The translations under genes and the position numbers were made by a program. The notes beneath the pieces were generated by a model. That model ran no database searches and was not told where the DNA came from. It saw only the letters and a list, made by a program, of their open reading frames with translations. Positions 2,848 to 22,689 of a DNA stretch of 64,000 bases are shown here, one piece after another. The stretch lies in contig NZ_CP010777.1 of NCBI RefSeq assembly GCF_001078055.1, forward strand, positions 642,408 through 706,407, given 5' to 3'. This stretch comes from Rufibacter radiotolerans. Lineage in GTDB: Bacteria; Bacteroidota; Bacteroidia; Cytophagales; Hymenobacteraceae. The stretch's first letter is position 1, and every line of letters begins with the position of its first letter.

Positions 2848-3864
2848 ATGAAGATCAGCATTGTTGTACCTGTTTATAAAACAGAAATTTATTTAAGAAG
2901 GTGCATTGAAAGCCTGATAAATCAGACTATAGTAGAAAAGGAAATTATTTTAGTGAATGATGCTTCTCCTGATAATTCTTTGGAGATATTATTAGAATAT
3001 AAAAATAATTATCCCGATTTAATTACTGTAATAGATTTGCCTGAAAATAGGTGTTTAGGTGGAGCAAGAAATGCTGGTATTAAAGCTAGTACAGGTAAGT
3101 TTATCGGGTTTGTTGATTCTGATGATTTTGTACATAAAGAAATGTATGAAGCTTTGGTTAACAAAGCCTTGCTTGAAGATGCAGATATTGTTGATTGCGA
3201 TGCGTTAGTTTTAAATGAGAACGGAAAAGAAATTTCTGTTGAAATTTCTAATACAAAGGAACAAGTAGGTCTGCTGGATAAAGCGAAGCGTAAAAGTCTC
3301 ATTCTGAATACCGGAAGAGTTTTTACAAAGGTCTTCAGAAGAGAACTGTTTTTTTCTAATAATCTTTTTTTTCAGGAGAAGGTATTGTTTGACGAAAATA
3401 ACCTGATTCCTATTTTGCTGGTTTTTGCTAAAAAAATAGAAAAGGTTGATTATCCGTATTATAATTATGTGCTAAGTTCAAATTCTACCTGCAGGGGAAA
3501 AGTTGAAAAATATTCTCCTGAAGATAGATATTTTAATGAGCGTTTACTTTCCACTTCCTTTGTTAAACAAAGATTTATAGATAATGGGCTATATAGTGAA
3601 TTTCAGGAAGAAGTTGACTTTGTAGTATTTAAATTATATTTAAGTACTTTATATGGTACATATGAAAGGTATAAAGTTTTACCTTATCATAGATTAAAAG
3701 AGCTTAAAAAGGTGAAAGATGTCCTGTCTAATTTGCATAATAATAGTTATTATAAAAATTTAGACTGGAAAAGTTTGATTTGGTTTCGGATAAATTCTAT
3801 CCACCCAAAGATGTTTTCAATGCTTTATTCTTTAAACAAAAAAATAAATGATACCATACGGTAA
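2848..3864 (+). CDS. Glycosyltransferase family 2
   Basis: The protein has 338 residues. Its N-terminal GT-A fold is plain: VVPVYKTEIYLRRCIESL at the start, the VNDASPDNS strand-loop, GARNAGI, and a D-S-D-D metal-binding motif in GFVDSDDFV near residue 90. The C-terminal half is less conserved and probably sets the acceptor. It is an inverting nucleotide-sugar transferase expected on the inner face of the cytoplasmic membrane. The gene lies between pseB and pseC and overlaps pseC by 17 nt, so it belongs to the operon. Its donor and linkage cannot be read from sequence. Confidence 0.88.
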   Translation: MKISIVVPVYKTEIYLRRCIESLINQTIVEKEIILVNDASPDNSLEILLEYKNNYPDLITVIDLPENRCLGGARNAGIKASTGKFIGFVDSDDFVHKEMYEALVNKALLEDADIVDCDALVLNENGKEISVEISNTKEQVGLLDKAKRKSLILNTGRVFTKVFRRELFFSNNLFFQEKVLFDENNLIPILLVFAKKIEKVDYPYYNYVLSSNSTCRGKVEKYSPEDRYFNERLLSTSFVKQRFIDNGLYSEFQEEVDFVVFKLYLSTLYGTYERYKVLPYHRLKELKKVKDVLSNLHNNSYYKNLDWKSLIWFRINSIHPKMFSMLYSLNKKINDTIR

Positions 3865-4996
3865 GCAATATATAAATAATGAAGATTTAAAAGCAGTTAC
3901 CGATGCTTTGCAATCAGACTTTCTAACTCAAGGGCCAAGAATTGCGGAGTTTGAGCAGAAGTTTTCAGAATATATAGATGTAAAACATTCTTTGGCTGTA
4001 AGCAATGGAACGGCTGCTTTACACTTAGCAGCATTAGCGCTTGGGGTAAATGAAAAGTCAAATGTAATTACCACGCCCATTACGTTCGCGGCTTCAGCAA
4101 ATTGCATCCGGTATTGCGGCGGAAATGTTTACTTTGCTGATATAGATGAAGAATCTTATCTGCTTGATCTAAATAAAGTAGAGGACCTGATTAAGTCCAA
4201 ACCTGCCGGATTCTTTTCAGGAATTATTCCGGTTGACTTTGCTGGTAGGGCAGTAAATCTGGAGAAATTCAGAACCTTGGCAGATAAGTATAACCTATGG
4301 ATAATTGAGGATGCCTGTCACGCTCCCGGAGGATATTTTGTAGACTCTAAGGGCCAAAAGCAATTTTGTGGAAACAGCCAGTTTGCTGAAGCAGCTATAT
4401 TTTCATTTCATCCGGTAAAGCATATCGCTTGCGGCGAAGGAGGCATGATAAGCTGTAATGATGACGATCTTTATAATAAGTTGCTGCTATTAAGAACCCA
4501 TGGTATTACTAAAGATTCAAATCTACTAAAGGAAAACCATGGTGGCTGGTACTATGAAATGCAGGAATTAGGGTACAATTACCGGCTAACCGATTTCCAG
4601 GCTGCTTTAGGAACTTCTCAGTTAAAAAGAGCTGATGCAGGGCTTGAAAAAAGAAGAGAAATAGCTAGAAAGTATAACGAGGCCTTTACAGGAAATGAAA
4701 GAATTCTTGGTCACTCCGGTGTGGTGGAAGGTCATGCGTATCATTTGTACATTATTGAAGTAGCAGACCGGCTTGGATTATACAATTATCTGCGGTCCAA
4801 AAACATTTTCACTCAAGTGCATTATATCCCTGTCCATACCATGCCTTATTACCAAGGCCTTGGCTGGAAGAAAGGAGACTTTCCTGCAGCGGAGTTATAC
4901 TATGAAAGGTGCCTTAGCTTACCAATGTTCCCTACATTAGAAAATGAAGAAATAGAATATGTAGTAAGCAGCATCAATGAATTCTTTGCAAAATAA
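3848..4996 (+). CDS. pseC: UDP-4-amino-4,6-dideoxy-AltNAc transaminase, PseC
   Basis: This 382-residue PLP enzyme of the DegT/DnrJ/EryC1 family begins with MIPYGKQYI, typical of PseC. The PLP-binding lysine is K191 in FSFHPVKHIACGEGG, the phosphate-binding SNGTAALHLA is at 52-61, and the cofactor-contacting Asp is in IIEDACHAPGG (152-162). It transaminates the 4-keto product of PseB with L-glutamate to give UDP-4-amino-4,6-dideoxy-N-acetyl-beta-L-altrosamine. It overlaps the preceding GT2 gene by 17 nt and the following gene by 20 nt, which suggests translational coupling. Confidence 0.93.
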   Translation: MIPYGKQYINNEDLKAVTDALQSDFLTQGPRIAEFEQKFSEYIDVKHSLAVSNGTAALHLAALALGVNEKSNVITTPITFAASANCIRYCGGNVYFADIDEESYLLDLNKVEDLIKSKPAGFFSGIIPVDFAGRAVNLEKFRTLADKYNLWIIEDACHAPGGYFVDSKGQKQFCGNSQFAEAAIFSFHPVKHIACGEGGMISCNDDDLYNKLLLLRTHGITKDSNLLKENHGGWYYEMQELGYNYRLTDFQAALGTSQLKRADAGLEKRREIARKYNEAFTGNERILGHSGVVEGHAYHLYIIEVADRLGLYNYLRSKNIFTQVHYIPVHTMPYYQGLGWKKGDFPAAELYYERCLSLPMFPTLENEEIEYVVSSINEFFAK

Positions 4997-7044: not shown

Positions 7045-7078
7045 TTAAATAAAACTATTGTTGAACCGAAATTTTGAA

Positions 7079-8533
7079 ATGATTACTAAGAAAAAGATTT
7101 TCTTCAGAGCTGATGGAAGCAGTGATATAGGTCTTGGTCACCTAGTTAGATCATCAGCTCTTGCAGATATGTTGAAAGAAAAGTTCGATTGCGTACTTGC
7201 TACGAGATGTGAGATATATACTGTAATCGAAACATTAAAATCTTCTTTTTCTGAAATCATTTCTCTGCCTGAACAGGAATATAGTTTGGAGGCAAAGTTA
7301 ATGGCTGATATGATTCCTTCACAGAGTCTTATTGTCCTTGATGGATATAATTTCGATTCAACTTATCAGGAATTGTTAGTCAACAATGGATTTGATCTCT
7401 TTAGTATTGATGATATTCATGCTTTCCAATTTCATTCTAAAGTCATTATAAACCATGCAGGAGGCATTGATCCTCTTGATTATCGGGCTTTACCAACAAC
7501 GCAATTCTTTTTGGGACCTCGCTATTCCTTATTGCGAGAACCTTTTTTAAAGGCTGCGAAGCAGAGAAGAAACTCTATAACAAATAAGAATTGTTTTGTT
7601 TGTTTTGGAGGTGCAGACCCTGATAATAAAACCTTAGAAATATTAAAGAATAAAAATATACGGGAGTCAGCTTACTTTGATAATTTTCATGTAGTTGTTG
7701 GTGGTGCATTCAAACATAAGGAAGCTTTAGAATCTTATATTCAGAACCAAGATATAACACTTTACTATGCCCTCACCTCTGAGGAAATGGTTAGTCTCAT
7801 GCAACACTGTAGCTATGCTATCTGCTCACCCAGTTCAATAGTTTATGAATATATGTCAGTAGGTGGAATTGTCTTTTTAGAGCAAATAGCTGACAACCAA
7901 TCTGATATTATTAAGTTTTTTCTTACCGAGGAAATGGCTTTTAGAATAAATGATTTAGAGTCACTTAGTACTGAAAAAATAGAAAATGCATTCAAGAAGC
8001 AAAGTTATTATTTTGATGGAAGCTCAGATGACCGGTTAAGAAGCGTTTTTCAGCAATACTATGATTCTAAAAAACTTTCCATACGAAGAGTGAATAAAAA
8101 TGATTTGGATATTTGTTTTAGTTGGGCGAATGATGTTGAGGTAAGAGGTCAATCATATAACCAATCTGCAATCGATTTGCAAAGCCATATAATCTGGTTT
8201 AATAAAAAATTAAATGACCTCGATGTCTTTTTTTATATACTTGAAAAAGATGAGAAGCCAGTTGCACAAATTCGTTTCCAAAAAACAAATAAGAAAGCTG
8301 TTCTTAGTTTTTTAGCTGATAAATCAATTCGGCATAAAGGTTTAGGTTCAAGCATATTGAGTAAAGGAATTAATGCTTTTTTGCAAGAGGTTAAAGCTCC
8401 TATTGAGATAGTAGGATTTGTAAAAAAATCTAATGTAGCTTCTCAACGTTCTTTTGAGAAATTATCCTTTGTGAAGGAAGAAAGTGGAGAGTATGCAGAA
8501 TCATATAAATATAGTTTGCATTGCTCGAATTAA
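7079..8533 (+). CDS. pseG: PseG UDP-sugar hydrolase fused to a PseH-like N-acetyltransferase
   Basis: Two pathway functions appear in one polypeptide of 484 residues. Residues 1 to about 325 resemble PseG, the GT-B-fold hydrolase that removes UDP: FFRADGSSDIGLGHLVRSS (8-26) carries the R-x-D...G-x-G-H signature, with the likely catalytic His at 21. From about residue 330 a GNAT domain follows (LSIRRVNKNDLDICFSW... HKGLGSSILSKG acetyl-CoA loop), matching PseH, which acetylates the 4-amino group before hydrolysis. In most described clusters pseG and pseH are separate genes. I chose ATG at 7079 over an in-frame TTG at 7058, because the PseG signature starts normally there. The sequence is low in GC. 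Confidence 0.85.
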   Translation: MITKKKIFFRADGSSDIGLGHLVRSSALADMLKEKFDCVLATRCEIYTVIETLKSSFSEIISLPEQEYSLEAKLMADMIPSQSLIVLDGYNFDSTYQELLVNNGFDLFSIDDIHAFQFHSKVIINHAGGIDPLDYRALPTTQFFLGPRYSLLREPFLKAAKQRRNSITNKNCFVCFGGADPDNKTLEILKNKNIRESAYFDNFHVVVGGAFKHKEALESYIQNQDITLYYALTSEEMVSLMQHCSYAICSPSSIVYEYMSVGGIVFLEQIADNQSDIIKFFLTEEMAFRINDLESLSTEKIENAFKKQSYYFDGSSDDRLRSVFQQYYDSKKLSIRRVNKNDLDICFSWANDVEVRGQSYNQSAIDLQSHIIWFNKKLNDLDVFFYILEKDEKPVAQIRFQKTNKKAVLSFLADKSIRHKGLGSSILSKGINAFLQEVKAPIEIVGFVKKSNVASQRSFEKLSFVKEESGEYAESYKYSLHCSN

Positions 8534-8564: not shown

Positions 8565-9437
8565 ATGGATATCTGTTTACTTGTTTCAGGTAATTTGGGT
8601 TATAAGATCTTGTTGGAGGTTTGTTTAGCATATAATGTTAGATGTGTTTTGACAGATAGGCAGTCTGAGGAAATTATTTCCTTCTGTAAATTAAAAGATA
8701 TTGTTTTTTTTGCTGGAAACCCACGGAATGGAAAAATTAGCGACCTAATTAATAAGGTAAAGATTGATGTTATTCTATCAATTAATTACCTTTTTCTTAT
8801 TGATCATCAAATTATACATTGGCCTAGAAAGTATGCCATAAACATTCACGGCTCCTTGTTGCCTAAATTCAGAGGCCGTACACCCCATGTTTGGGCTATC
8901 ATTAACAACGAAAAGGAAACAGGTATAACTGCTCACTTGATAGATGAAGGTTGTGATACTGGTCCAATCATTAGTCAGCTTAGAATTAGCATAGAAGACA
9001 ATGATACGGGTGCGTCCTTGTTGGAAAAATATAAGGAAAAATACCCTGAACTGGTTAGAAGGGTTCTAGAAGGTGCTTCAAATGGCACATTGGAGCTAAA
9101 GGCTCAAGATCATTCCAAAGCTACTTACTTTAGCAAACGTACTCCCGAAGACGGTGAAATAAACTGGAATTGGCAGAAGGAACGCATTTTTAATTGGGTA
9201 AGGGCTCTGGCTCATCCGTATCCGGGCGCTTTTACTTATTTTAATGAAAAAAGAATTAGAATTAACAAAGTAGTTTTCTCAAATATCGGTTATTCGGATA
9301 ATGTTGATAACGGTTCTATCTTAATGATTGAGGATGGAAACCCAATTGTGAAAACTCAGAACGGAGCAATAAAAATTGTAAATTTCGACCTGGATCCGGG
9401 CTTTAAAGTAAACGGTAAATTTTATGGAAAATATTAA
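8565..9437 (+). CDS. Sugar N-formyltransferase (Fmt-like), probably acting on a nonulosonate precursor
   Basis: The protein has 290 residues and belongs to the 10-formyltetrahydrofolate transferase fold. The catalytic triad is visible as N93, H95 (INIHGSLLPKFRGR) and D131 (DEGCDTGP). A C-terminal Fmt-like subdomain follows (WQKERIFNWVRALAHPYPG). Family members formylate methionyl-tRNA or amino sugars (ArnA, WbtJ, FdtF/VioF type). Position decides here: it sits between pseG/H and pseI and overlaps pseI by 14 nt, so an amino-sugar substrate is likely. N-formylated pseudaminic acid is known from some Gram-negative O-antigens. Whether it competes with the PseH-like domain at the same amine is inference. 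Confidence 0.8.
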   Translation: MDICLLVSGNLGYKILLEVCLAYNVRCVLTDRQSEEIISFCKLKDIVFFAGNPRNGKISDLINKVKIDVILSINYLFLIDHQIIHWPRKYAINIHGSLLPKFRGRTPHVWAIINNEKETGITAHLIDEGCDTGPIISQLRISIEDNDTGASLLEKYKEKYPELVRRVLEGASNGTLELKAQDHSKATYFSKRTPEDGEINWNWQKERIFNWVRALAHPYPGAFTYFNEKRIRINKVVFSNIGYSDNVDNGSILMIEDGNPIVKTQNGAIKIVNFDLDPGFKVNGKFYGKY

Positions 9438-10464
9438 GATTGGAAATGTTACAATAGGTAAGGGTTCTACGCCTTTTATTATTGCGGAGATGTCTGGTAA
9501 CCACAACCAGTCATTGGACCGGGCGCTGGCTATTGTTAATGCAGCAGCCGACGCAGGGGCACATGCTATCAAGTTACAGACCTATACCGCAGATACCATG
9601 ACCATGCCTGGGGTATATACCATCCAGGATGAAGGTTCTCTCTGGAAAGGAAGGGAGCTTTATGATCTTTACACAGAAGCGTATACTCCATGGGAGTGGC
9701 ATAAGCCTATTTTTGATTTGGCGAAACAAAGAGGTATTATTGCCTTTAGCTCTCCTTTTGATGAGACTGCTGTTGACTTCCTGGAGGAACTGGGTGCTCC
9801 GTTATACAAAATAGCTTCTTTCGAAAACACAGATTGGCCTCTGTTAAAAAAAGTGGCAGCTACCGGTAAGCCAGTCATAATGTCTACTGGGGTTACATCA
9901 CTTAGTGACTTAGATGAATCCGTTAAGATACTTCGTGATAATGGCTGTACCCAACTTATTCTGCTAAAGTGCACCAGCACTTATCCCTCAAGCCCAGCAA
10001 ACACAAATATTAGTACTATCCCTCACATGGAGGCATTGTTTAATTGCCCTATTGGCCTTTCTGACCACACAATGGGTGTAGGTGTAGCTGTAGCTGCTGT
10101 GGCATTAGGTGCTTGTGTGGTTGAAAAACACTTTACTTTAAGTCGGGCAGAAGGGGGAGTTGATTCTGCCTTTTCTTTAGAACCTGCAGAACTAAATGCC
10201 TTGGTCATTGAAACAGAACGGGCTTGGCAGGGGTTAGGTAAAGTTCAGTACGGAATTCAAAAGGCTGAGGAAAAAAGTAAATTCTTTAAGCGGTCCATAT
10301 ATGTAAGTAAAGATGTAGAAGCCGGAGATTTACTTACTGAAGATAATTTAAGGGTGATAAGACCCGGAAATGGAATGGCACCCAAACATCTTGACCAGGT
10401 AATAGGAAAAATCGCTAAGGTTCAGATAAAGGCTGGCACCCCCCTGTCATTTGATATGATTTAA
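9424..10464 (+). CDS. pseI: Pseudaminic acid synthase, PseI (NeuB family)
   Basis: This 346-residue enzyme condenses phosphoenolpyruvate with the 6-deoxy diamino hexose to give the nine-carbon acid. The NeuB TIM-barrel domain covers about residues 1-275, with IIAEMSGNHNQS (19-30, E22 and H27) and VVEKHFTLSR (second metal-binding His). A C-terminal SAF (antifreeze-like) domain covers about 285-346 (KRSIYVSKDVEAGDLLTEDNLR). The SGNHNQS and YTPWEWHKPIF stretches favour PseI over NeuB or LegI. It overlaps the formyltransferase gene by 14 nt and is followed 2 nt later by pseF. Confidence 0.94.
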   Translation: MENIKIGNVTIGKGSTPFIIAEMSGNHNQSLDRALAIVNAAADAGAHAIKLQTYTADTMTMPGVYTIQDEGSLWKGRELYDLYTEAYTPWEWHKPIFDLAKQRGIIAFSSPFDETAVDFLEELGAPLYKIASFENTDWPLLKKVAATGKPVIMSTGVTSLSDLDESVKILRDNGCTQLILLKCTSTYPSSPANTNISTIPHMEALFNCPIGLSDHTMGVGVAVAAVALGACVVEKHFTLSRAEGGVDSAFSLEPAELNALVIETERAWQGLGKVQYGIQKAEEKSKFFKRSIYVSKDVEAGDLLTEDNLRVIRPGNGMAPKHLDQVIGKIAKVQIKAGTPLSFDMI

Positions 10465-10466
10465 AT

Positions 10467-11165
10467 ATGAAAAAAGCAATTGCCATTATTACAGCCCGGG
10501 GTGGAAGCAAGCGGATTCCTAAGAAAAACATAAAACCTTTCCATGGGAAACCCATTATTGCCTACAGTATTGAAGAAGCTCTGAAATCTTGTGTATTTGA
10601 TGAAGTGATGGTTTCAACGGATGATGAGGAGATTGCTGCGGTTGCAATACAATACGGCGCTGTGGTTCCCTTTAAACGGTCAGCCAAAGCTTCTGATGAT
10701 TATGCTTCTACAGCTGACGTAATTTCAGAAGTTCTAGAAGCATATAAGGGGCTGGGGCAGGATTTTGAATATGCCTGTTGTATCTATCCCACAGCTCCGT
10801 TCGTTTCTGCTGAAAAATTAAAAAATGCCTTACAGTTATTGATTGAAAAAAATGCTGACTCTCTGATCCCGGTCACTAAGTTTAGTTTTCCAATCTGGCG
10901 TTCATTTAAAATGGAAGGAGAAAACATTTCCTATAACTGGCCGGAGTTTGCACCTAAGAGATCACAGGATCTTCCGCCGGCTTACCATGACTGTGGCCAG
11001 TTTTATTTTTTTAAAGCAAACACATTCCTGACAACCAAAAAGCTGGTTACAGAGAATACAATTGGGCTAGAAGTTCCTGAAACAGAAGTGCAGGATATTG
11101 ATAATGAAGAAGACTGGAAAATAGCAGAAATTAAATATGGTTTTATGCATAATATCGGAAGATAA
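10467..11165 (+). CDS. pseF: CMP-pseudaminic acid cytidylyltransferase, PseF
   Basis: The 232-residue nucleotidyltransferase activates the nonulosonic acid as a CMP-sugar. The CTP-binding signature ARGGSKRIPKKNIKPF (10-25) is typical of CMP-NeuAc/CMP-Pse synthetases, followed by VMVSTDDEEIA and IYPTAPF. It completes the pathway together with pseB, pseC, pseG/H and pseI, all upstream on the same strand. The CMP-sugar is the donor needed by a nonulosonate transferase, and the two unusual paralogues at 18796-21394 are candidates. Confidence 0.93.
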   Translation: MKKAIAIITARGGSKRIPKKNIKPFHGKPIIAYSIEEALKSCVFDEVMVSTDDEEIAAVAIQYGAVVPFKRSAKASDDYASTADVISEVLEAYKGLGQDFEYACCIYPTAPFVSAEKLKNALQLLIEKNADSLIPVTKFSFPIWRSFKMEGENISYNWPEFAPKRSQDLPPAYHDCGQFYFFKANTFLTTKKLVTENTIGLEVPETEVQDIDNEEDWKIAEIKYGFMHNIGR

Positions 11166-12118: not shown

Positions 12119-13429
12119 ATGCCACACTTAGCCATCAAAGGCGGCGAGCCAATAAGAAAAGAGTTATTCCCTGCCTATAATACCATAGGGAAAGAAGAAA
12201 AGGAGGCTGTACAAAAAGTGCTTGACACAGGTAATCTTTCCCAGTTCCTGGGCGCCTGGACACCAGATTTCTTTGGAGGTCCAACGGTAAGAAAGCTGGA
12301 AGAAGACTGGTGCCAGGCACTCAGTGTTGGGTATGCAATCAGCGTGAACTCCAATACTTCTGGCTTATTCGCTGCTGTGGGTGCCTGTGGCATTCAGCCA
12401 GGCGATGAGGTAATTGTTTCACCCTACACCATGTCGGCGAGTGCTATCGCGCCTATAGTTTATGGAGGTGTTCCCATATTCGCAGATATTGACCCAGACA
12501 CGTTTTGCATGGACCCCAAGAGTATAGAGGCTAAGATAACACCTCGTACCAAAGCAATTCTGGTAGTGCATATTTTTGGTCATCCTGCAGATATGGATAC
12601 TATTATGCAATTGGCTAAAAAGCATAATTTAAAGGTGATAGAAGATTGTGCTCAGGCACCAATGGGTATGTACAAAGGAAAGTATGTAGGAACCATTGGC
12701 GATCTGGGAGTATTCAGCCTAAACTATCACAAACATATACATACTGGTGAAGGAGGAATTGTTGTGACCAACGATCCTATTCTGGCAGAAAGGATCCAGT
12801 TGATCCGAAACCATGGTGAAAATATTGTAGAAGCCAAAGGCATAACCGACCTTACCAATATGATAGGCTTTAATTACCGCATGACGGAAATTGAGGCAGC
12901 TATTGGAATAGAACAGTTAAAGAAGCTGCCTGCCTTGTTAGAGGAGCGCCTAAAGAATGCCGCTTTTCTACATGAGGCCATTGGGTCAATTAATGGTTTG
13001 GTTTCTCCTCCAAAAGTTAAAAGTCCATCTGTTCATACTTATTACGTTCAGCCAGTTAAGTATAATCAATCAGTTTTTGAAGTTCATCGGAACGACTTTG
13101 TAAATGCTGTGAAAGCTGAAATTCCCTCTGCGGTATTGAGAGAAACCGCCCCTCTAATTGGCGCTGGTTATGTTAGGCCTTTGTATCTACAACCTATCTA
13201 TCAGCAAAGAGCAGCATTTGCTTTTAATAATGAAAAGTTCAAGAGTGATGTTAATTATAGCAAAGGCCTTTGTCCGGTCACGGAACAAATGCACTACTCT
13301 GAATTAATTACACATGAATACATGCGTCCGGGCATGAGCCGAAAAGATATGGAAGATGTGGTGCGGGCATTTGAAAAAGTGGCTAAACATATAGACGAAT
13401 TAAAAATAAATGCTGCAGTTGCCGGGTAA
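12119..13429 (+). CDS. DegT/DnrJ/EryC1-family aminotransferase
   Basis: The protein has 436 residues, about 50 longer than the pseC product of this operon. The PLP lysine is K205 in SLNYHKHIHTGEGG. NSNTSGLFAAVGA (77-89) forms the phosphate pocket, and IEDCAQAPMG (174-183) the ring contact. It is a sugar-keto transaminase or a related dehydratase; the usual lysine argues for transamination. The C-terminal insertion (about 325-400) is unusual in length. It likely aminates the keto group made by the preceding Gfo/Idh enzyme. The following gene overlaps by 20 nt. Confidence 0.85.
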   Translation: MPHLAIKGGEPIRKELFPAYNTIGKEEKEAVQKVLDTGNLSQFLGAWTPDFFGGPTVRKLEEDWCQALSVGYAISVNSNTSGLFAAVGACGIQPGDEVIVSPYTMSASAIAPIVYGGVPIFADIDPDTFCMDPKSIEAKITPRTKAILVVHIFGHPADMDTIMQLAKKHNLKVIEDCAQAPMGMYKGKYVGTIGDLGVFSLNYHKHIHTGEGGIVVTNDPILAERIQLIRNHGENIVEAKGITDLTNMIGFNYRMTEIEAAIGIEQLKKLPALLEERLKNAAFLHEAIGSINGLVSPPKVKSPSVHTYYVQPVKYNQSVFEVHRNDFVNAVKAEIPSAVLRETAPLIGAGYVRPLYLQPIYQQRAAFAFNNEKFKSDVNYSKGLCPVTEQMHYSELITHEYMRPGMSRKDMEDVVRAFEKVAKHIDELKINAAVAG

Positions 13430-14378
13430 GCATATCGGTTTTGTGTTCAGCGACCCGGCAGGTGCAAACGCCTGCCTGGCCCTGGCAGATATATGGCAAC
13501 AGGAAACAGGTACTGAGCCGCTGCTATTTTCAAATAAAGAATTGGGTGTAAAACGAAACGGCCGATTTTATTTATCGGCAGATACTCCTGCATTTAAACA
13601 GTTTAAGATAGACTGTATTTTTACCGGTACATCTCACCCGGTTTCTTCAAAGTACTTTGAGATCAATTGTATTATAAAAGCAACAGAGGAGGGGATTTAC
13701 ACCATAGCCTTTATTGACCATTGGGTTAACTTTAAGTTGCGTTTTACAGGAAAAGATGGCCTGCAACATTATCCGGATGAGATTTGGGTATTAGATGAAA
13801 CTGCCAGAAATTTAGCCATTGCTGAAGGTTTGCCGGTAGAAAAGCTTTTTATTCATGAGAACCCATATCATGTTTTCCTGAAAAACAATTGGCAACCTGA
13901 GTATGAGGAGAAGGCCTACCTGAAAGAGTTAGGCATCAGGCAAGACGGCTGTCATGTTTTGTTTGCCCCGGATCCGTTATCGCTGCGGAATGGAAAAGAG
14001 ATTCAGGGTTTTACTGAAGATGAGGCACTGGATGATCTGCTGGCAGTTGCTGGGGGGGTGAAAACGGATTTAAGTCTAATTATCAAAATGCATCCGCTTC
14101 AGCCGCTGGGAATCCTTGAGGAAAAAGTAAAGGTAGTGCCAGGACTTGAGGTGTTTTTTATTAAGGATGCTAATACCCTGGAACTAATAATGGCATGTGA
14201 TGTTGTAATAGGATTTTACTCCAACCTTTTGTTAGAGGCTGCCACCTTGGGTAAAAAAGTAATCAGGTATTTTCCTGGGAAAAATGAAGCAGACCTGCTC
14301 AAGCATAATAGTTCGCTTATCAAAGTGGTTGAGCGGCAGGAACTACGAAGAGAATTAAAAAAAGCTATAAATGAGTGA
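13410..14378 (+). CDS. Unrecognised GT-B-like protein in the nonulosonate operon
   Basis: I do not recognise a named family for this 322-residue protein. The pattern resembles GT-B folds: an N-terminal half ending in FIDHW (101-105) and DEIWVLDETARN (123-134), then IIKMHPLQP (224-232), then VIGFYSNLLLEAATLGKKVI (266-285). The KMHP and S-N-L-L-L-E-A segments recall UDP-GlcNAc 2-epimerases, teichoic-acid-type transferases and CMP-sugar transferases. It overlaps both neighbours (20 nt and 8 nt), so it is an integral operon gene. It could be a transferase or an NDP-sugar hydrolase. No signal peptide or membrane segment is visible. Confidence 0.55.
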   Translation: MLQLPGKHIGFVFSDPAGANACLALADIWQQETGTEPLLFSNKELGVKRNGRFYLSADTPAFKQFKIDCIFTGTSHPVSSKYFEINCIIKATEEGIYTIAFIDHWVNFKLRFTGKDGLQHYPDEIWVLDETARNLAIAEGLPVEKLFIHENPYHVFLKNNWQPEYEEKAYLKELGIRQDGCHVLFAPDPLSLRNGKEIQGFTEDEALDDLLAVAGGVKTDLSLIIKMHPLQPLGILEEKVKVVPGLEVFFIKDANTLELIMACDVVIGFYSNLLLEAATLGKKVIRYFPGKNEADLLKHNSSLIKVVERQELRRELKKAINE

Positions 14379-14916
14379 GATTGTTTTTTTACAAGGAAGC
14401 AGAATTCATCTGCGGGCTTTGATGGAGAAAGACTTAAGTCCAGACTACCTGCAGTGGCTAAATGATGAAGAAGTATGCCGGTTTAATTCTCATGCGACCC
14501 TTCCTAATACGGAGTATAAAATGAGAACTTATTTTGAAGCTTTAAAGAATAGCCAGAGCAATATAGTTCTGGCTATTATTCATTCTGAAACCAACACGCA
14601 TATAGGTAATGTTTCCTTGCAGGGCATTAATTGGATTTCAAGGAATGCTGAATTTGCCATTCTTCTGGGTAATAAAGAATTCTGGAAAGGTGGCTATGGA
14701 GAGGAAGCAGCAAGGCTTATCATAGCCTATGGTTTTGAAAGGTTAAACCTACACCGAATTTATTGCGGGACCTTAGAAGGTAACGTAGGGATGAAAAAGC
14801 TAGCTGCAAAATTAAACATGAAAGAAGAAGGTGTAAGAAGGGAAGCAGTTTATAAAAATGGTTCTTATTATAGCATTCTAGAATATGGAGTGTTAAAAAG
14901 TGAATTTAATAACTAA
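14371..14916 (+). CDS. GNAT-family N-acetyltransferase (RimJ/RimL-like)
   Basis: The protein has 181 residues. It begins IHLRALMEKDLSPDYLQWLND, typical of RimJ/RimL-like GNATs, and has an acetyl-CoA binding loop around FWKGGYGEEAARLII and a C-terminal NLHRIYCGTLEGNVGMKKLAAKL. The substrate is probably an amino sugar made by the preceding oxidoreductase and aminotransferase, not a ribosomal protein. It overlaps the preceding gene by 8 nt and the following amidotransferase by a single base (TAATG). It is a second acetyltransferase besides the domain fused to PseG, so at least two amines may be acylated by this operon. Confidence 0.82.
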   Translation: MSEIVFLQGSRIHLRALMEKDLSPDYLQWLNDEEVCRFNSHATLPNTEYKMRTYFEALKNSQSNIVLAIIHSETNTHIGNVSLQGINWISRNAEFAILLGNKEFWKGGYGEEAARLIIAYGFERLNLHRIYCGTLEGNVGMKKLAAKLNMKEEGVRREAVYKNGSYYSILEYGVLKSEFNN

Positions 14917-16064
14917 TGAAATACTGTAAAAATTGTTTGCAGCCGGATACCAGGCCTGGGACAAAGTTTGACGAAAAGGGCGTTTGCCCTGCCTGCAACT
15001 ATTTTGAAACACTTCAGGCTGTTGATTGGGAGGAACGCAGGGAAGAATTAAAAGATATAGTTGCGTTTGGTAAAGCTAATAATCATTCTGGTTATGATTG
15101 TATTATTGGTGTGAGTGGAGGAAAGGATTCTCTCCGGCAGGCTGTTTTTGTGAAGGAGGTGCTGGGAATGAATCCTTTGCTGGTTTGTTTGAGCTATCCA
15201 CCTGAACAGGTAACACAGCGGGGAGTTGACAATATTTCCAATCTCATAAAACTAGGTTTTGATTGTATAACCATTAATCCTGCTCCCGATACCTGGAGGG
15301 ACTTGATGCGGAAAGCTTTTCTGGAACATGTGAATTGGTGCAGGTCTACTGAAATGGCACTTTTTAGCTCCGTTCCCCGGCTGGCAATTGCTTACCAGAT
15401 TCCGCTTATCTGGTGGGGTGAAAATACCGCTCTTCAACTAGGTGACTTGAATGTTATGGGAAAGACTGGTAGTGATGGAAATAGGCTAAAACATATGAAT
15501 ACCCTGGCTGGTGGTGACGTCACTTGGTTGTTAGGCGAGGAGATAAAAAAGAATGATATCCTACAGTATTGCTACCCATCTGATAGAGAGATGGAGAATG
15601 CTGGGCTTAGAATCGTATTTTTAGGCTACTTTTGGAAGGACTGGTCCCTATTAAACAATGGTATATTTGCAGCTTTACGAGGATTAGATGTCAGGGAAGA
15701 ACCACCAGAAAATATTGGGGACTACATGGGGATAACCTCTCTGGATGAAGATTGGGTGACATTTAACCAGATGATCAAATACCTTAAGTTTGGATTTGGC
15801 CGGATTACAGATTATGTAAATGAAGATATCCGGTGGAAACGTCTGACCCGAGAAGAAGGTATTGAACTTGTAGAAAAATATGATGGCAAATGTTCACCCC
15901 AATATATAGAATCTTTTTGCCGGTATATAAATATCAGTGTAGAAGAATTCTGGAGAATAGTAGATCAGGGGGTTAATAAAAAACTCTTCACAAAAAATGA
16001 ATCAGGAGAGTGGATGCCAACATTTGAGGTAGGTAAGTATGAAGAAGAGTATAGCAATAATTGA
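14916..16064 (+). CDS. N-acetyl sugar amidotransferase (WbpG/PseA family), copy 1
   Basis: This 382-residue protein has a zinc-ribbon-like start (C4, C7, C24, C27) and an ATP-pyrophosphatase P-loop SGGKDS at 67-72. The family converts an acetamido group to an acetamidino group with ammonia delivered by a HisH/HisF pair, as shown for WbpG in Pseudomonas and proposed for PseA in Campylobacter. Here hisH- and hisF-like genes follow directly, with a 26-nt overlap to hisH, so the same chemistry is expected on a nonulosonic acid or diamino sugar. The P-loop is intact, unlike in copy 2 at 17530-18780. Confidence 0.88.
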   Translation: MKYCKNCLQPDTRPGTKFDEKGVCPACNYFETLQAVDWEERREELKDIVAFGKANNHSGYDCIIGVSGGKDSLRQAVFVKEVLGMNPLLVCLSYPPEQVTQRGVDNISNLIKLGFDCITINPAPDTWRDLMRKAFLEHVNWCRSTEMALFSSVPRLAIAYQIPLIWWGENTALQLGDLNVMGKTGSDGNRLKHMNTLAGGDVTWLLGEEIKKNDILQYCYPSDREMENAGLRIVFLGYFWKDWSLLNNGIFAALRGLDVREEPPENIGDYMGITSLDEDWVTFNQMIKYLKFGFGRITDYVNEDIRWKRLTREEGIELVEKYDGKCSPQYIESFCRYINISVEEFWRIVDQGVNKKLFTKNESGEWMPTFEVGKYEEEYSNN

Positions 16065-16662
16065 TTACGGCGTCGGGAATATCCAGTCAGTAAAAGAGGC
16101 CATAGGATCTTTGGGATATAATTTGTTTGTTTCTAATGATACAAATAAACTGGCCAAGGCAGATGGACTGATTTTGCCAGGTGTAGGAGCCTTTGGTGCC
16201 GCTATGGAAAGCTTACACGAGCGGCGGTTGATTGTTCCATTAAATGAACTGGTGTTGGAGCAGAAAAAGCCCATCTTAGGTATTTGCCTTGGTATGCAGC
16301 TTCTGGCTGATTTTTCTGAAGAAAATGGATACCATAATGGGCTTGGTTGGATAAGTGGCGGAGTAATCAGGATAGAAGGGGGCCAGAATCTTAGGGTTCC
16401 TCACGTAGGTTGGAACGATGTGGATATTAGGCAGAAGGAGCCCTTGTTTGATCGTATGCAAGGGACATCTAACTTCTATTTTGACCACAGCTACCATTTT
16501 GATGCCAAGAATGAAGAAGATGTGGCAGCAAGAGTAAACTATGGACTAGGGTTGGTGGCGGCTGTAAAAAGGGGAAATATTCATGGGGTGCAGTTTCACC
16601 CGGAAAAAAGTCAGATCACCGGACTCAGGTTATTAAAAGGGTTCTTAAATTCCATTGGGTAA
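16039..16662 (+). CDS. hisH: HisH-type glutamine amidotransferase subunit for sugar amidination
   Basis: The 207-residue class-I glutaminase has catalytic C83 (GICLGMQLLA) and H187/E189 (GVQFHPEKS); all three triad residues are present. It releases ammonia from glutamine and passes it to its HisF-like partner. Histidine genes are absent around it, and the gene overlaps the PP-loop amidotransferase gene by 26 nt and nearly abuts the hisF-like gene. It therefore most likely serves glycan amidination, as HisH2 does in Pseudomonas O-antigen loci. Genomes with such clusters usually hold a separate hisH in the histidine operon, which is not in this window. Confidence 0.88.
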   Translation: MKKSIAIIDYGVGNIQSVKEAIGSLGYNLFVSNDTNKLAKADGLILPGVGAFGAAMESLHERRLIVPLNELVLEQKKPILGICLGMQLLADFSEENGYHNGLGWISGGVIRIEGGQNLRVPHVGWNDVDIRQKEPLFDRMQGTSNFYFDHSYHFDAKNEEDVAARVNYGLGLVAAVKRGNIHGVQFHPEKSQITGLRLLKGFLNSIG

Positions 16663-16663
16663 A

Positions 16664-17533
16664 ATGTTAAAGAAAAGAATAGGTGCAGCCTTAATTATAA
16701 AAGATAACTGGGTTGTGCAGAGTATTGGTTTTAATAAATACCTGCCTGTAGGAAAGCCCGAAATTGCAGTTGAATTTTTGAATAAATGGGGTATTGATGA
16801 GATATTTCTAATCGATATTTCAGCTACAAAGAACAAATCAACCATCTCCCCTGATTTGGTAATGAAGAGTTCAAAATATTGTCGCGTTCCGCTTGCGGTA
16901 GGTGGTGGCATAACTTCCGTGGAGCAAATGGAAATTATGCTTCAATCAGGAGCTGATAAAATTTGCCTTAATCAGGCTTTACATAAAAATCTGAATTTAC
17001 TGACCCAGGGGGCAAATAAATTTGGAGATCAGTTTATGGTAGCGGTGGTTGACTTTGTGAAAGGACAGGACGGTTATGAAGTCTATGATTATATAAGAAA
17101 GCAGACTACAGGCAAAAAGGTCATTGATTTTGTAAAAGAACTGGAAGTTGCCGGGGCAGGAGAGGTGGTCCTGCAGTCAGTGGAAAGGGATGGACGATAT
17201 AATGGTTTTGAAACCGACTTATATGAGCAGGCCTGTCAGGAAGTAACCATTCCAGTTATTGCTCTTGGGGGAGCAGGTAAAGCTTCGCACTTTATTAATC
17301 TGCTACAACAAACGCAGGTATCTGCTGCCTGCGCCGGAAATATTTTTCATTTCGCGGAACATAGTGTTAATATGCTTAAGGCACAATTGGTGGAAGCCAA
17401 AAGTACAGTCAGGCTGGAAACATTTGCTAATTACGATCACAGTCAGTTTGATGAGAGGGGCAGGCTTTTAAAAGCAGATGACCAGTATCTGGATGACTTA
17501 TTATTTATACGTATTGAAAAAGAAGTAATATGA
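16664..17533 (+). CDS. HisF-like cyclase subunit, probably an ammonia conduit, lacking one catalytic Asp
   Basis: The protein has 289 residues, with a C-terminal tail about 35 longer than standard HisF. The TIM-barrel phosphate sites are recognisable (AVGGGITS, ALGGAGK). Aligned without gaps to the Thermotoga maritima enzyme, D130 is kept, but the catalytic D11 of the MLAKRIIACLDV start is isoleucine (MLKKRIGAALII). Loss of that residue argues against imidazole glycerol phosphate synthesis and for a pure ammonia-delivery role. ATG at 16664 was chosen over an upstream TTG at 16655 because it reproduces the HisF N-terminus. The gene overlaps the second amidotransferase gene by 4 nt. Confidence 0.85.
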   Translation: MLKKRIGAALIIKDNWVVQSIGFNKYLPVGKPEIAVEFLNKWGIDEIFLIDISATKNKSTISPDLVMKSSKYCRVPLAVGGGITSVEQMEIMLQSGADKICLNQALHKNLNLLTQGANKFGDQFMVAVVDFVKGQDGYEVYDYIRKQTTGKKVIDFVKELEVAGAGEVVLQSVERDGRYNGFETDLYEQACQEVTIPVIALGGAGKASHFINLLQQTQVSAACAGNIFHFAEHSVNMLKAQLVEAKSTVRLETFANYDHSQFDERGRLLKADDQYLDDLLFIRIEKEVI

Positions 17534-18780
17534 AGATTTGTAAGCGTTGCCTCTATTCATCAAAACACCCGCTAGGGCTTACTTTTGATGATGAAGGCAT
17601 CTGTAGCGGCTGTAGAGTACATGAAGAAAAAGATCAGTTAAACTGGGAAGAAAGAGGAGAGAAGTTACGGTCCATTTTAGAACAGTATAAGAATAAAAGC
17701 GGCAATAACTATGATTGCATAATTCCTGTAAGCGGAGCCAGAGATTCATATTTTATTGTGCATACCGTAAAAAATGTATATGGTATGAACCCCTTACTGG
17801 TTACTTATAATAAACAGTATAATACGGAAATAGGTATCCGAAATCTGGCAAATCTGCGGATCAAATTCAACTGCGATATTATGACGCTCACGGTTGATCC
17901 TGAAAAGGTTAAGAAAATAACCAGGGCAACTCTGGGCAAAAAAGGCAGCATGTATTGGCATTGCCTGGCCGGTCAAACTGTTTTTCCTGTTCAGATGGCT
18001 GTTAAATTCAAAATTCCTTTAATTATCTGGGGTGCCCACCAGGGAGTAGATCAGGTTGGGATGTTTTCGCACCTTGATGAGGTGGAAATGACCCGAAAGT
18101 ATAGGAAGGAGCACGATCTGATGGGGCTTGAAGCCGAAGATCTTGTTAGTGATTTCGATAATATTTCCCTTGATGATGTCAGGTCCTTTGTTTATCCGGA
18201 TGACAAAGAATTGGAGCGGGTAGGGATAAGGGGTATTTACCTCAATAACTATATCAGATGGGACTCTAAGTCGCAGCACGAACAAATGATTGCGCAGTAC
18301 GGATACGAGTCTAACTATCAAACCCGTACCTTTGATACCTATAATGATATTGATTGCTTTAATTATTCTGATGTACATGATTACATAAAATTCTTAAAGC
18401 ATGGGTATGGTAAAGTAACAGATCATGCTAGCCGGGAAATACGCCTTAAAAGGTTAACCCGGGAAGAAGGAGCGGAGCTTGTTAAGCAGTATGTTTATAA
18501 AGAGCCGCAGAACCTGGGCCTTTTTCTGGATTGGATTGGAATGAAAGAGTCCGGGTTTAATTTTATTATTGATCTGCACCGGAGCCCGGACATCTGGGGC
18601 CGAAATAATAAATGGGAATGGGAGCTAAAAACGGATCTCTTGCCCGAAAAAGAAAGTGCTGAAGATATAGATCCTTACAGATTAGAGAAAGTTGATAGTT
18701 GTGATTTTATAATTACCGACCACGAGGCTGCTTATAAAGAAGACCATTATATTCTGATTGGAAAAGGTTATTACAAATAA
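17530..18780 (+). CDS. N-acetyl sugar amidotransferase-like protein, copy 2, with altered P-loop
   Basis: The protein has 416 residues and the same architecture as 14916-16064: Cys pairs C4/C7 and C25/C28, then a PP-loop. The loop reads SGARDS (68-73) instead of SGGxDS, so the second glycine is alanine. The rest of the fold is conserved (IIWGAHQGVDQVG, HGYGKVTDHASREIRLKRLTREEGAELV). A C-terminal extension of about 40 residues is absent from copy 1. The two paralogues flank the single hisH/hisF-like pair. They may amidinate two positions or sugars, form one complex, or copy 2 may be a degenerate partner. Confidence 0.82.
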   Translation: MKICKRCLYSSKHPLGLTFDDEGICSGCRVHEEKDQLNWEERGEKLRSILEQYKNKSGNNYDCIIPVSGARDSYFIVHTVKNVYGMNPLLVTYNKQYNTEIGIRNLANLRIKFNCDIMTLTVDPEKVKKITRATLGKKGSMYWHCLAGQTVFPVQMAVKFKIPLIIWGAHQGVDQVGMFSHLDEVEMTRKYRKEHDLMGLEAEDLVSDFDNISLDDVRSFVYPDDKELERVGIRGIYLNNYIRWDSKSQHEQMIAQYGYESNYQTRTFDTYNDIDCFNYSDVHDYIKFLKHGYGKVTDHASREIRLKRLTREEGAELVKQYVYKEPQNLGLFLDWIGMKESGFNFIIDLHRSPDIWGRNNKWEWELKTDLLPEKESAEDIDPYRLEKVDSCDFIITDHEAAYKEDHYILIGKGYYK

Positions 18781-18795
18781 TACACGGAAACAATC

Positions 18796-20022
18796 ATGAG
18801 GGTTTTGTTAATCGTTCAGCCAGAGAGGTTTGATTTTTATTCATTTTTAGCAGCAGGAAAAGATATTGAATGGGTGCTTTTATGGTATGAAAAGCCATCG
18901 CAAATGGTATTATCTCCTGTAGATCTTCCTTTGGATTTTAGTTCCGTTAGATATTGGAATGAGTTTACAACTCCTCAAATGCTATTAGATACGATTAAAC
19001 CCGATCGAATTATTTTTTATGAAATAATTGACCTGCGTCAAATTGCTCTGAATGTTACAGCTTTAAAGAATAAAGTTCCTACCTTCTTTATGGAGCATGG
19101 AGCTGCCGGAGATAAGGATGCAGCTGCAGAAAGGATAGAGGTATCAAAATTTGATAAAAGCAAATTAATTTATTTGCTTACTAGATTCAGAAGTTCCTTT
19201 AGTGATATAATTCGTTCTAAGGTTTTTTATTATTCCGCCTTAAGTGGATTAGGTTCTTTAAATTCATTTGTAAAATATTCTTTTTTGCCCTTAAAAATGT
19301 TAAAGGGGTATCCTAATAAAACCCTGAGTCAAAATATTTTTGAAGAACGCATTCCATTAAGATCAATAGTATTTAATAAAGCAAACTTTGAAGAGTATGC
19401 CTTATATAGTGGTGCAAGTACTGAGAATGCGGTATTTGGAGGTGTTCCTTTTTTTGATAAATATTATAATAATTCAACTGCGGAAAAAGACTACATTATT
19501 TATAATGAAGCGTGTTATTTAGAAGAAGGGTTAGCAGGTTGGACGAAAGAACATCATAAAGAAGTTGCGCAAGCACTTTTTGATTTTGCTGAAAAAAATA
19601 AAATTACACTATATGTTAAGCTTCATCCTAGGTCAAACCCTGTATTATGGGAGAGCTATGAATTTAATAAAGATTACGTAACCATACTCCACTCAGGTGA
19701 TTTTACTGATCTGTATTTACAGTCAAAGCTTATTCTTAGCTATAGTTCCAGTATGCTAAATGGATGCTTATGCGCTAGGAAAAATATTGTTTTACTTGGT
19801 TGGCATCCAGTGCCACATATATTTGGGGCTGATTTTTCTGACTATGGGTTATGCCATGTTTCGTTGTCCCCAACAGAATTATTAACAAATTTTGATTATT
19901 GGGTTAATAATAATTTATCGTATTTGAACGAAGGAGCATATAATGCTTTTTTAGATAGATTTAATACCCCATTTGACGGGAAGGCTAGTGAAAGGATTTT
20001 AGAACGAATTAAAAATTGTTAA
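18796..20022 (+). CDS. Putative glycosyltransferase of unrecognised family, tandem paralogue 1
   Basis: The protein has 408 residues and no family I can name. Features resemble GT-B transferases using CMP-sugars: PTFFMEHGAAGDK (95-107), KLHP (275-278), then SYSSS (315-319) before NGCLCARKNIVLLGWHP. Bacterial sialyl- and polysialyltransferases carry an acidic D/E-D/E-G motif, an HP motif and a Ser/Thr motif in that order. Here the first would be EHG (100-102), with His for the second acid, so the match is partial. Because the operon makes CMP-pseudaminate and has no other obvious transferase for it, this protein and the next are candidate nonulosonate transferases. GC is low and no signal peptide is seen. 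Confidence 0.6.
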   Translation: MRVLLIVQPERFDFYSFLAAGKDIEWVLLWYEKPSQMVLSPVDLPLDFSSVRYWNEFTTPQMLLDTIKPDRIIFYEIIDLRQIALNVTALKNKVPTFFMEHGAAGDKDAAAERIEVSKFDKSKLIYLLTRFRSSFSDIIRSKVFYYSALSGLGSLNSFVKYSFLPLKMLKGYPNKTLSQNIFEERIPLRSIVFNKANFEEYALYSGASTENAVFGGVPFFDKYYNNSTAEKDYIIYNEACYLEEGLAGWTKEHHKEVAQALFDFAEKNKITLYVKLHPRSNPVLWESYEFNKDYVTILHSGDFTDLYLQSKLILSYSSSMLNGCLCARKNIVLLGWHPVPHIFGADFSDYGLCHVSLSPTELLTNFDYWVNNNLSYLNEGAYNAFLDRFNTPFDGKASERILERIKNC

Positions 20023-20170
20023 CAGTTTCTGAATTATATTTTTTTTCTGAATTGATTACTCAGGTACAACTGTAATTGCCAACTTCCTTTTCAAAAGTAA
20101 ATTTACTGCTTTTTATTTTAGGGATAATTGTAGCCTTTTTACTTAACAAATTTTAAACTGAAGATTTATT

Positions 20171-21394
20171 TTGAAGATTTTGTTAATTGTTCAGCCTGAC
20201 AGGTTCGATTTCTATTCGTATTTGCAAAAAGCTGAAAATGTTGAATGGGTTCTGCTTTGGTATGAGAAACCTGCGCAAATGAAACTGTCAGTGAAAGAGC
20301 TTCCTCTTAATTTCAGTGAAGTTTATTCCTGGCAAGAATTTGCAACGCCTAAAGAATTGATTCAGAGAATAGCTCCGGATAAAATTATTTTTTTTGAAAT
20401 AATAGACCTGCGTCAGATAGCTCTCATTGTAACAGCAAATAATCTTAAGATTCCTACTTTTTACCTGGAACATGGTGCAGCGGGTGATAAAGGCACTGCT
20501 ATTGAACGTTGGAAAGAGGTTGAATTTAGCAGGCATAAATTGCCTTACCTAATAAAACGGTTCAGAGAATCATTTTTTGACGTTCTGAAGTCGAAGTTCT
20601 TTTATTATTCCGTCACCAGTGGCTTCCATTCTGCTGATTCGTTAAAGAAGTATGCTATGCTGCCTTTCAGGATGATGCAGGATGGTCCAAATAAGGTATT
20701 AGCGCATAACCATTTCAAAGAAAGGGTACCTGCAAAATCAATTGTATTTAATAGAGCCAACTTAGAAGAGTATTCAGTTTATACGGGTACTCAACCAGAG
20801 GATGCCTTGTTTACGGGGGTACCCTTTTTTGATAAGTATTTTAAAGAAAGAAATGTAGTAAAAGATCACATCGTTTATATTGAACATCCACATTTAGAGG
20901 AAGGATCTGTAGGCTGGACCAAAGAGCACCATAAAAACGTGGCGGAGGCTCTCTTTGACTTTGCCGAGAAGCGAAACCTGCATCTTTATATAAAGCTTCA
21001 CCCCAAGTCCAACCTCTCTTACTGGAATAGTTACAAATATAATAAAGACTTGGTAAAGGTAATACAAGCCGGTGATTACACCGACCTTTACCTAGAATCT
21101 AAGCTTATCCTAAGCTATAGTTCAAGTTTATTGACAGGGTGCTTGTGTGCCCGAAAGAACATCGTTTTGCTGGGTTGGCATCCGGAACCAAGGGTTTTTG
21201 GTGCTGACTTCTCAGCATTTGGTTTATGTCATGTCTCTTTGTCACCTTCTGAGTTACATGAGAAGTTTGACTACTGGATTGATAATAATCTAACCCTTGA
21301 GAGTGAGGATTCGTACAATGCTTTTTTAGAGCGGTTTAATGTCCCTTTTGATGGTCAGGCCACATCAAGGGTGTTGGAGGTAATAAGTACTTAA
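20171..21394 (+). CDS. Putative glycosyltransferase of unrecognised family, tandem paralogue 2
   Basis: The protein has 407 residues and aligns with the preceding protein end to end without internal gaps, at about 60% identity counted by hand. EHG (100-102), KLHP (275-278) and SYSSS (315-319) fall at identical positions. The start is a TTG at 20171, chosen because the N-terminus (KILLIVQPDRFDFYS) then matches paralogue 1 residue for residue. A 148-nt AT-rich gap separates the copies; the flippase gene overlaps its stop by one base. The high conservation of the C-terminal half suggests a shared donor, with acceptor differences lying elsewhere. Confidence 0.6.
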   Translation: MKILLIVQPDRFDFYSYLQKAENVEWVLLWYEKPAQMKLSVKELPLNFSEVYSWQEFATPKELIQRIAPDKIIFFEIIDLRQIALIVTANNLKIPTFYLEHGAAGDKGTAIERWKEVEFSRHKLPYLIKRFRESFFDVLKSKFFYYSVTSGFHSADSLKKYAMLPFRMMQDGPNKVLAHNHFKERVPAKSIVFNRANLEEYSVYTGTQPEDALFTGVPFFDKYFKERNVVKDHIVYIEHPHLEEGSVGWTKEHHKNVAEALFDFAEKRNLHLYIKLHPKSNLSYWNSYKYNKDLVKVIQAGDYTDLYLESKLILSYSSSLLTGCLCARKNIVLLGWHPEPRVFGADFSAFGLCHVSLSPSELHEKFDYWIDNNLTLESEDSYNAFLERFNVPFDGQATSRVLEVIST

Positions 21395-22689
21395 TGAAGT
21401 TAATAAAGTCTTTTTCTGCCTATACCTTAGCAGGTGTTTATGGGGCAGCAGCAAGTTTTTTTGTTTTACCTATTTTATCTCATTATCTATCTACGGCAGA
21501 TTATGGTATTTTATCAATATTTAACTCTTATGTTTTAATTATAATGCCGCTAATTGGCCTCGTGGCCTCGGGAATAATAAGTGTCGAATTTTTTAAAATC
21601 CAGGATAAAAAGGAGTTTGCTTCTTTTTTTACTTCTGTTCAGTTAATCCCGATTATTCCATTTGTCTTTTTTCTTGTTATTTCTTTTCTATTCGGGGGGT
21701 ATTTGAGTAGGCTTTTAGAGATTCCAACTGAATTCTCTAATTATCTATTTCTAATTCCTTTAATTGCTATTCTGACAATTTATATAGAATCTTATTTAGC
21801 ATATCTGGTTGTAAAGAAAAGTGCTTACCATTATCTGGTGGTCAATATAGTTAAATCATCTGTAGAAATTGGTTTGACTTTGTTATTTGTTGTCTACTTT
21901 GACATGGGTTGGTTTGGACGAATACTATCCTGGCTTATTGCGTCTTTGCTATTTACCTTTGTGGCTTCAATTTATTTTTATAAAGAAGATTTATTTTCAT
22001 TAAAAGTAACTAAAAAGTATGTCATGGCAGGGGTGTGGTTTGGATTACCTTTGATACTACACACGTTAGGTAAATTTGTGATAAACCAATCTGATAGGAT
22101 TTTTATTGCCAAAATGGTGAATGTTGATGAGGTAGGCGTGTATAATATTGCCTATCAGCTGGCAAGTATATTGCTAATTTTTGTTTCTGCCTTTAGCAAT
22201 CTGTATGTGCCTTACTTGTATGAAAGATTAGCTGATTTTAATAAAAAGACTGAAAAAGAAATATTGCAAATTAGCTACTTATATACGGTGATATTAATAG
22301 CCGGGACTGTTATTATTACCTTTGGTAGTCGGTTTCTATTTGGGTGGTTTATTGATGTTAAGTTTATTGGTGCAATACCTTACATCTTCTGGATTAGTTT
22401 TAGTTATTTTTTGTGGGGAATGTATGCCTTGTTCTCTGCATATATTTATTATTTTAATAAGAATAAGTATTTAGCTTATCTTTCTTTTATTAATGTAATT
22501 ACAAATATTGCATTTAATTATATATTTATAAAACAATTTGGGGCGCTTGGAGCTGCATATGCCACTTGTTTGTCATATTTTATAACATTGGTTATGATAA
22601 TATTTTTTGCCACTCGGCTTGTTTCTATTTCGTGGTTTAATGTAGGCTTTGTTTTTAATGGTTTTTTTAAAGTGAAGGACGGTAAATAG
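21394..22689 (+). CDS. Polysaccharide flippase (Wzx/PST-type, MOP superfamily)
   Basis: The 431-residue, strongly hydrophobic protein has about twelve predicted membrane segments. It starts SAYTLAGVYGAAASFFVLPILSHYLS, the usual opening of polysaccharide transport proteins. Arg/Lys/Asp-containing loops such as INQSDRIFIAKMVNVDEVGVYNIAYQLA (about 229-256) are characteristic of Wzx. It would move the undecaprenyl-linked repeat unit across the inner membrane. The ATG overlaps the preceding stop (TAATG). It is the last gene of the run starting at 1809. Its presence argues for a Wzx/Wzy-dependent route rather than an ABC transporter. Confidence 0.87.
   Translation: MKLIKSFSAYTLAGVYGAAASFFVLPILSHYLSTADYGILSIFNSYVLIIMPLIGLVASGIISVEFFKIQDKKEFASFFTSVQLIPIIPFVFFLVISFLFGGYLSRLLEIPTEFSNYLFLIPLIAILTIYIESYLAYLVVKKSAYHYLVVNIVKSSVEIGLTLLFVVYFDMGWFGRILSWLIASLLFTFVASIYFYKEDLFSLKVTKKYVMAGVWFGLPLILHTLGKFVINQSDRIFIAKMVNVDEVGVYNIAYQLASILLIFVSAFSNLYVPYLYERLADFNKKTEKEILQISYLYTVILIAGTVIITFGSRFLFGWFIDVKFIGAIPYIFWISFSYFLWGMYALFSAYIYYFNKNKYLAYLSFINVITNIAFNYIFIKQFGALGAAYATCLSYFITLVMIIFFATRLVSISWFNVGFVFNGFFKVKDGK

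Follow-up and report, generated by a model that had tools for sequence, protein, structure and literature searches.

A tandem pair of probable CMP-nonulosonate transferases, with histidine in the base position, beside the CMP-pseudaminate pathway of Rufibacter radiotolerans

Two adjacent genes of Rufibacter radiotolerans, here called GTx1 and GTx2, probably encode CMP-nonulosonate transferases that act most likely on a derivative of pseudaminic acid (Pse) and that carry a histidine in the position of the catalytic base. They probably represent a divergent branch of a GT38-like family. The window, by which we mean the whole stretch of 64,000 nucleotides that was analysed, is part of a 4.82 Mb single-contig genome; its features are listed in Table 1. 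A CMP-nonulosonate transferase had already been proposed in the first-pass annotation, which was made from the letters of the window and a list of their open reading frames, and the proposal is supported by the gene neighbourhoods of the family and by its matches to the polysialyltransferase family PF07388. The donor sugar itself we infer from gene context.

The two proteins can be aligned over 405 positions without a gap. Using BLASTP, we found that 251 of these positions are identical (62%) and 79% similar (521 bits), an identity well beyond chance and in agreement with the gap-free pair of 408 and 407 residues, about 60% identical, that had been described from a hand count. The three motifs reported at that time, EHG (100-102), KLHP (275-278) and SYSSS (315-319), are indeed present in both proteins, and the TTG start of GTx2 aligns with Met1 of GTx1. 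Because dN between the two genes is 0.288 (NG86) while dS is saturated, selection on the proteins has maintained both copies. A tree of 43 rows places them in a clade of their own (support 100/100) with tips of 0.37 on a long stem of 3.11, the mark of an old, divergent lineage that was duplicated later. None of the sampled genomes yielded a relative above about 25-29% identity; single-protein searches returned no close relative from the genome contigs or plasmids, and only distant ones elsewhere. The two copies may differ in their acceptor or in the form of the donor that they use. Between them lie 148 bp of AT-rich sequence (20023-20170), in a region where most neighbouring genes are tightly spaced. 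Scans for promoters and terminators around the pair gave results at about chance level, and Rfam had no match within the window.

Table 1. Features of the window around GTx1 and GTx2
Feature	Position	Strand	Remarks
PseB, UDP-GlcNAc 4,6-dehydratase	1809..2831	+	TIGR03589, 511 bits, cut-off 407.75
PseC, aminotransferase	3848..4996	+	TIGR03588, 457 bits, cut-off 423.5
PseG fused to a GNAT domain	7058..8533	+	TIGR03590 over cut-off; GNAT is a PseH match below cut-off
Formyltransferase, possible N-formyl sugar decoration	8565..9437	+	
PseI, pseudaminic acid synthase	9424..10464	+	TIGR03586, 490.5 bits, cut-off 340.25
PseF, CMP-pseudaminate synthetase, maker of the proposed donor	10467..11165	+	TIGR03584, 299.7 bits, cut-off 205.7
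Second DegT/PseC-like aminotransferase	12119..13429	+	Below PseC cut-off
GT3, 322 aa, distant GT-B-like relative of GTx1/GTx2 (C-terminal half)	13410..14378	+	Possible rival or additional nonulosonate transferase
N-acetyl sugar amidotransferase, acetamidino decoration	14916..16064	+	TIGR03573
HisH/HisF-like pair, amidino-decoration type	16039..17533 (16039-16662, 16655-17533)	+	
Second N-acetyl sugar amidotransferase, directly upstream of GTx1	17530..18780	+	TIGR03573
GTx1, candidate CMP-nonulosonate (pseudaminate) transferase	18796..20022	+	ATG start, 408 aa
GTx2, paralogue in tandem with GTx1	20171..21394	+	TTG start, 407 aa, same invariant residues
Flippase-like membrane protein	21394..22689	+	Start overlaps GTx2 stop

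The CMP-pseudaminate pathway is complete in the window, where PseB, PseC, PseG-PseH, PseI and PseF are all encoded. Apart from PseH, a sub-threshold domain within a fusion, each of these proteins exceeds its curated cut-off. The Pse genes are followed by genes for decorating enzymes (the formyltransferase, GNAT, two amidotransferases and the HisH/HisF-like pair), these by GTx1 and GTx2, and these in turn by the flippase-like gene. An ORF similar in length to the fusion of PseG with the PseH-like GNAT domain (7058-8533) also adjoins PseI in Pontibacter.

The family to which GTx1 and GTx2 belong is small: we aligned 40 distinct sequences, which come from Cytophagales that include Rufibacter and Pontibacter. 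In profile searches, 23 of the 390 genomes of the order had strong full-length members, and in a search at the level of the phylum the members were weaker or scattered. Outside the branch of Pontibacter and Botryobacter, a nonulosonate synthase lies within 10 kb of the family member at 19 of 19 loci inspected (the window, L011-L014, L035, L080-L082, L084, L085, L087, L095-L099, L132 and L144), which are not independent of each other. As a control we counted GT4 genes by hand in six of the same genomes and found that 30 of 104 are no more than 9 kb from one of these synthases, so that neighbourhood alone is no proof at any one locus; the result for the 19 loci is nevertheless far from this control rate. 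The 23 genomes of the order that have a strong family member all contain a synthase matching at E<=1e-45; as background, any synthase match at E<=1e-3 occurs in 261 of the 390 genomes. The family is thus found where nonulosonates are made, and not mainly in genomes without their synthesis, the distribution that the first-pass annotation had named as fatal to its reading.

At the loci of the Pontibacter and Botryobacter branch (22, some cut by contig ends), no nonulosonate genes were found near the family member. Members of the Pontibacter branch adjoin genes for UDP-glucose dehydrogenase (UGD) and a UDP-xylose synthase (UXS)-like protein; the neighbours of the members in L083, L086, L088-L094 and L122-L143 (Pontibacter, Botryobacter) are UGD/UXS-like and GT4 genes. 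PseI is present elsewhere in the genome in all nine Pontibacter genomes checked. At the Pse locus of Pontibacter, a GT-B-like ORF of 425 aa directly follows PseI (L111:4-1281, minus strand, and likewise in L116). This ORF matches the family profile weakly; it is likely to be a Pse transferase there and is possibly a counterpart of GtfS of Tannerella.

Evidence that bears on the donor comes from the synthases themselves. Ten synthases that neighbour other family members all score best as NeuB, with two (at L095 and L097) over the NeuB cut-off and none over that of PseI; the synthase of the window, unlike these, is over the PseI cut-off. In Rufibacter sediminis and Adhaeribacter soli the family member is followed by a homologue of the window's flippase (52% and 50% identical to it, respectively). 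When the syntenic loci of these two species are compared with each other, the synthases are 75%, the transferases 51% and the flippases 65% identical, while a comparison of the window with them gives 52% for the flippase, 33% for the synthase and 24% for the transferase. Because the window keeps the flippase, and not the synthase or the transferase, the transferase and the sugar cassette appear to change together, which argues for CMP-Pse as the substrate of GTx1 and GTx2. A comparable exchange has been reported between GtfS of Tannerella and its counterpart in a legionaminate strain (PMC6388019).

Among 20 family members compared with Pfam, 18 match PF07388 at E<=0.01, several of them over the cut-off (35.4 and 39.3, for example). 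GTx1 and GTx2 are below it, at 18.7 and 19.4 against 23.3 bits. They are over the cut-off of PF04464 (CDP-glycerol transferase) with 24.6 and 24.4 against 22.1, in the C-terminal half only, and they are the only two of the 20 to match that family. To call the family unrecognised, as had been done at first, is therefore only partly right, since Pfam puts members in PF07388 and the pair in PF04464. GT52 (PF07922) is matched by one of the 20 relatives, at 5e-6, and not by GTx1 or GTx2; no NCBIfam family was over its cut-off for the pair, and no credible relative emerged from sequence searches of the PDB, whether the query was the protein or family profiles.

Six residues are invariant in the 40 distinct members (H101, G102, G216, K275, H277 and P278), S318 is conserved in 39 and R11 in 38, and these eight together with P69 make up all columns in which conservation reaches 93%. 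We compared the family profile with a polysialyltransferase-like set of five members, NeuS plus four Bacteroidota proteins that match PF07388, and obtained an alignment along the length of the profile (E 1.1e-5, probability 82) in which xHG falls on EEG and KLHP on KPHP. Because E. coli NeuS alone is too weak to place EHG, its N-terminal alignment being no better than shuffles, the register of H101 depends on the five-member set and on the corresponding position, where a strand ends. The polysialyltransferase MhPST uses as its base the second acidic residue, E153, of E152-E153-G154, and its phosphate ligands are H291 of the HP motif and S339/T340 (PMC5517516). The HP motif and the S/T positions of the phosphate ligands are conserved in our family as in GT38/PF07388, but the acidic base at the second position of D/E-D/E-G is absent, and all 40 members have His in its place. 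Since H101 aligns with the catalytic Glu, the base appears to have changed from Glu to His, the residue that TagF also has, and H101 is the putative catalytic base. The earlier statement that one acidic residue had been replaced by His was accurate for this second, catalytic position; the first, E100, is not conserved. We rejected E100 as a catalytic acid, because position 100 is E in 22, Q in 11, D in five, S in one and F in one of the 40 members.

The AlphaFold model of GTx1 has a GT-B fold (pLDDT 80.3, pTM 0.81, with a low-scoring loop at 104-116), as does that of the better covered relative from R. sediminis (pLDDT 91.6, pTM 0.88). The Foldseek matches of the GTx1 model were 2-epimerases and transferases of the GT-B type, among which MhPST (5wcn) ranked tenth overall (E 6.6e-10). 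VIA placed CroT (8a0c) at the top with Z 20.4 (326 aligned, 4.1 A), followed by TagF (3l7k) with Z 20.3 (317 aligned, 3.9 A) and 2-epimerases at about 19; for the R. sediminis model the leaders were 2-epimerases (19.8) and TagF (18.4). The absence of 5wcn from the best 50 of either VIA list excludes nothing. Models, Foldseek and VIA thus bear out the GT-B fold that had been predicted, although GT38, GT52 and GT80, the families suggested for comparison, were not singled out and TagF-like enzymes and 2-epimerases score higher. Because these enzymes outrank the polysialyltransferase, the fold tells the class of the enzyme and not its donor.

The resemblance to TagF raises the question of whether GTx1 and GTx2 are polyol-phosphate transferases of the TagF/CroT type, with a CDP-polyol donor and with the HG and HP motifs supplying two catalytic histidines. 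The PF04464 scores agree with this, the TagF/TarL/CroT enzymes are the nearest solved structures by VIA Z, and TagF itself has two catalytic histidines, H444 and H584 (PMC5974469). Because the VIA alignment spans TagF 353-717, a His common to TagF and our family is plausible. We nevertheless consider the CDP-polyol reading quite improbable: the cluster makes CMP-Pse, the relatives of the pair adjoin nonulosonate synthases, the wider family has no PF04464 match, and the genome contains no CDP-glycerol synthase that scores above cut-off (48 bits against 165), nor was one recognised in the cluster. A retaining mechanism, like that of KpsS1 of Acinetobacter baumannii (GT118) or of the Kdo transferases GT99, GT107 and GT140, is very improbable. 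KpsS1 is the one pseudaminyltransferase with a CAZy classification that is named in PMC12887879, has GT-B relatives and shares the HP motif, but it is retaining, and neither its probable general base, YE (also that of KrkA), nor the QxxxD nucleophile motif of the Kdo transferases is conserved in the 40 members. Profile comparison with E. coli KpsS gave nothing, with a probability under 1.

The remaining alternative concerns GT3, the C-terminal half of which matches the family profile (E 2.5e-6) and which carries the motifs D-H-W, KMHP and GFYS. All five GT3 homologues inspected (L042, L107, L166, L167 and L168) adjoin or are close to an aminotransferase of the 12119-13429 type, and a nonulosonate synthase (PseI or NeuB) is near three of them. 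These neighbourhoods and the HP and GFYS motifs would suit a GT3 that is the pseudaminyltransferase of the cluster, with GTx1 and GTx2 transferring another sugar of the same glycan. We regard that division of labour as unlikely, since the family of GTx1 and GTx2 is tied to nonulosonate clusters without GT3 and matches PF07388, and since GT3, GTx1 and GTx2 could each act on different Pse forms. GT3 itself may be a Pse transferase, and a glycan that contains more than one nonulosonate form would suit the presence of three transferases and several enzymes for decoration. In the GT3 homologue of L168, the His of DHW is replaced by Glu, the same kind of exchange between His and an acid as in the family of GTx1 and GTx2.

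If GTx1 and GTx2 are CMP-nonulosonate transferases, as we favour, they would be inverting GT-B enzymes that attach a nonulosonic acid to a lipid-linked surface glycan. Their donor would be a CMP-nonulosonic acid supplied by the upstream PseB-C-G/H-I-F enzymes, most probably CMP-pseudaminic acid itself or one of its decorated forms. H277-P278 and S318-S319 would bind the phosphate of CMP, as H291/S339/T340 do in the polysialyltransferase of Mannheimia. H101, which lies in the loop that follows a strand of the N-domain, would deprotonate the acceptor hydroxyl in place of Glu/Asp. The adjoining flippase would then export the lipid-linked glycan. With the polysialyltransferases of GT38/PF07388 (NeuS and MhPST, 5wcn) the family has in common the GT-B fold, the order of the D/E-D/E-G, HP and S/T motifs and a CMP-nonulosonate setting. 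It differs from them in having His for the catalytic Glu and some 40-50 residues more between the motifs, and the likeness, with the pair itself under the Pfam cut-off, carries no evidence of polymerisation. By description only, the pair can also be likened to GtfS of Tannerella forsythia (Tanf_01245), an alpha-2,4 Pse5Am7Gra transferase of 445 aa and GT-B type whose gene immediately follows pseI in a glycan cluster, also of a member of the Bacteroidota (PMC6120980, PMC6388019).

Because few pseudaminyltransferases have been characterised and these have little sequence in common, candidates are hard to spot. A wider reading, which we advance tentatively, as something rather less than probable, is that there is a separate Cytophagales family of GT-B CMP-nonulosonate transferases with an invariant His in place of the catalytic carboxylate of the sialyltransferase motif D/E-D/E-G, and that the pair is a duplicated branch of it that has moved to pseudaminate. 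If this is true, such a family would link the polysialyltransferases and the TagF-like enzymes mechanistically, and if H101 is the base, carboxylate would have changed to histidine within one fold. A family that tracks nonulosonate cassettes, in which the transferase changes with the sugar, would also provide a set for testing donor specificity. Farther along the window, 27309-28766 encodes an NDP-hexose 2,3-dehydratase with two PF03559 domains, which suggests a sugar of the 2,3-dideoxy type in the same glycan.
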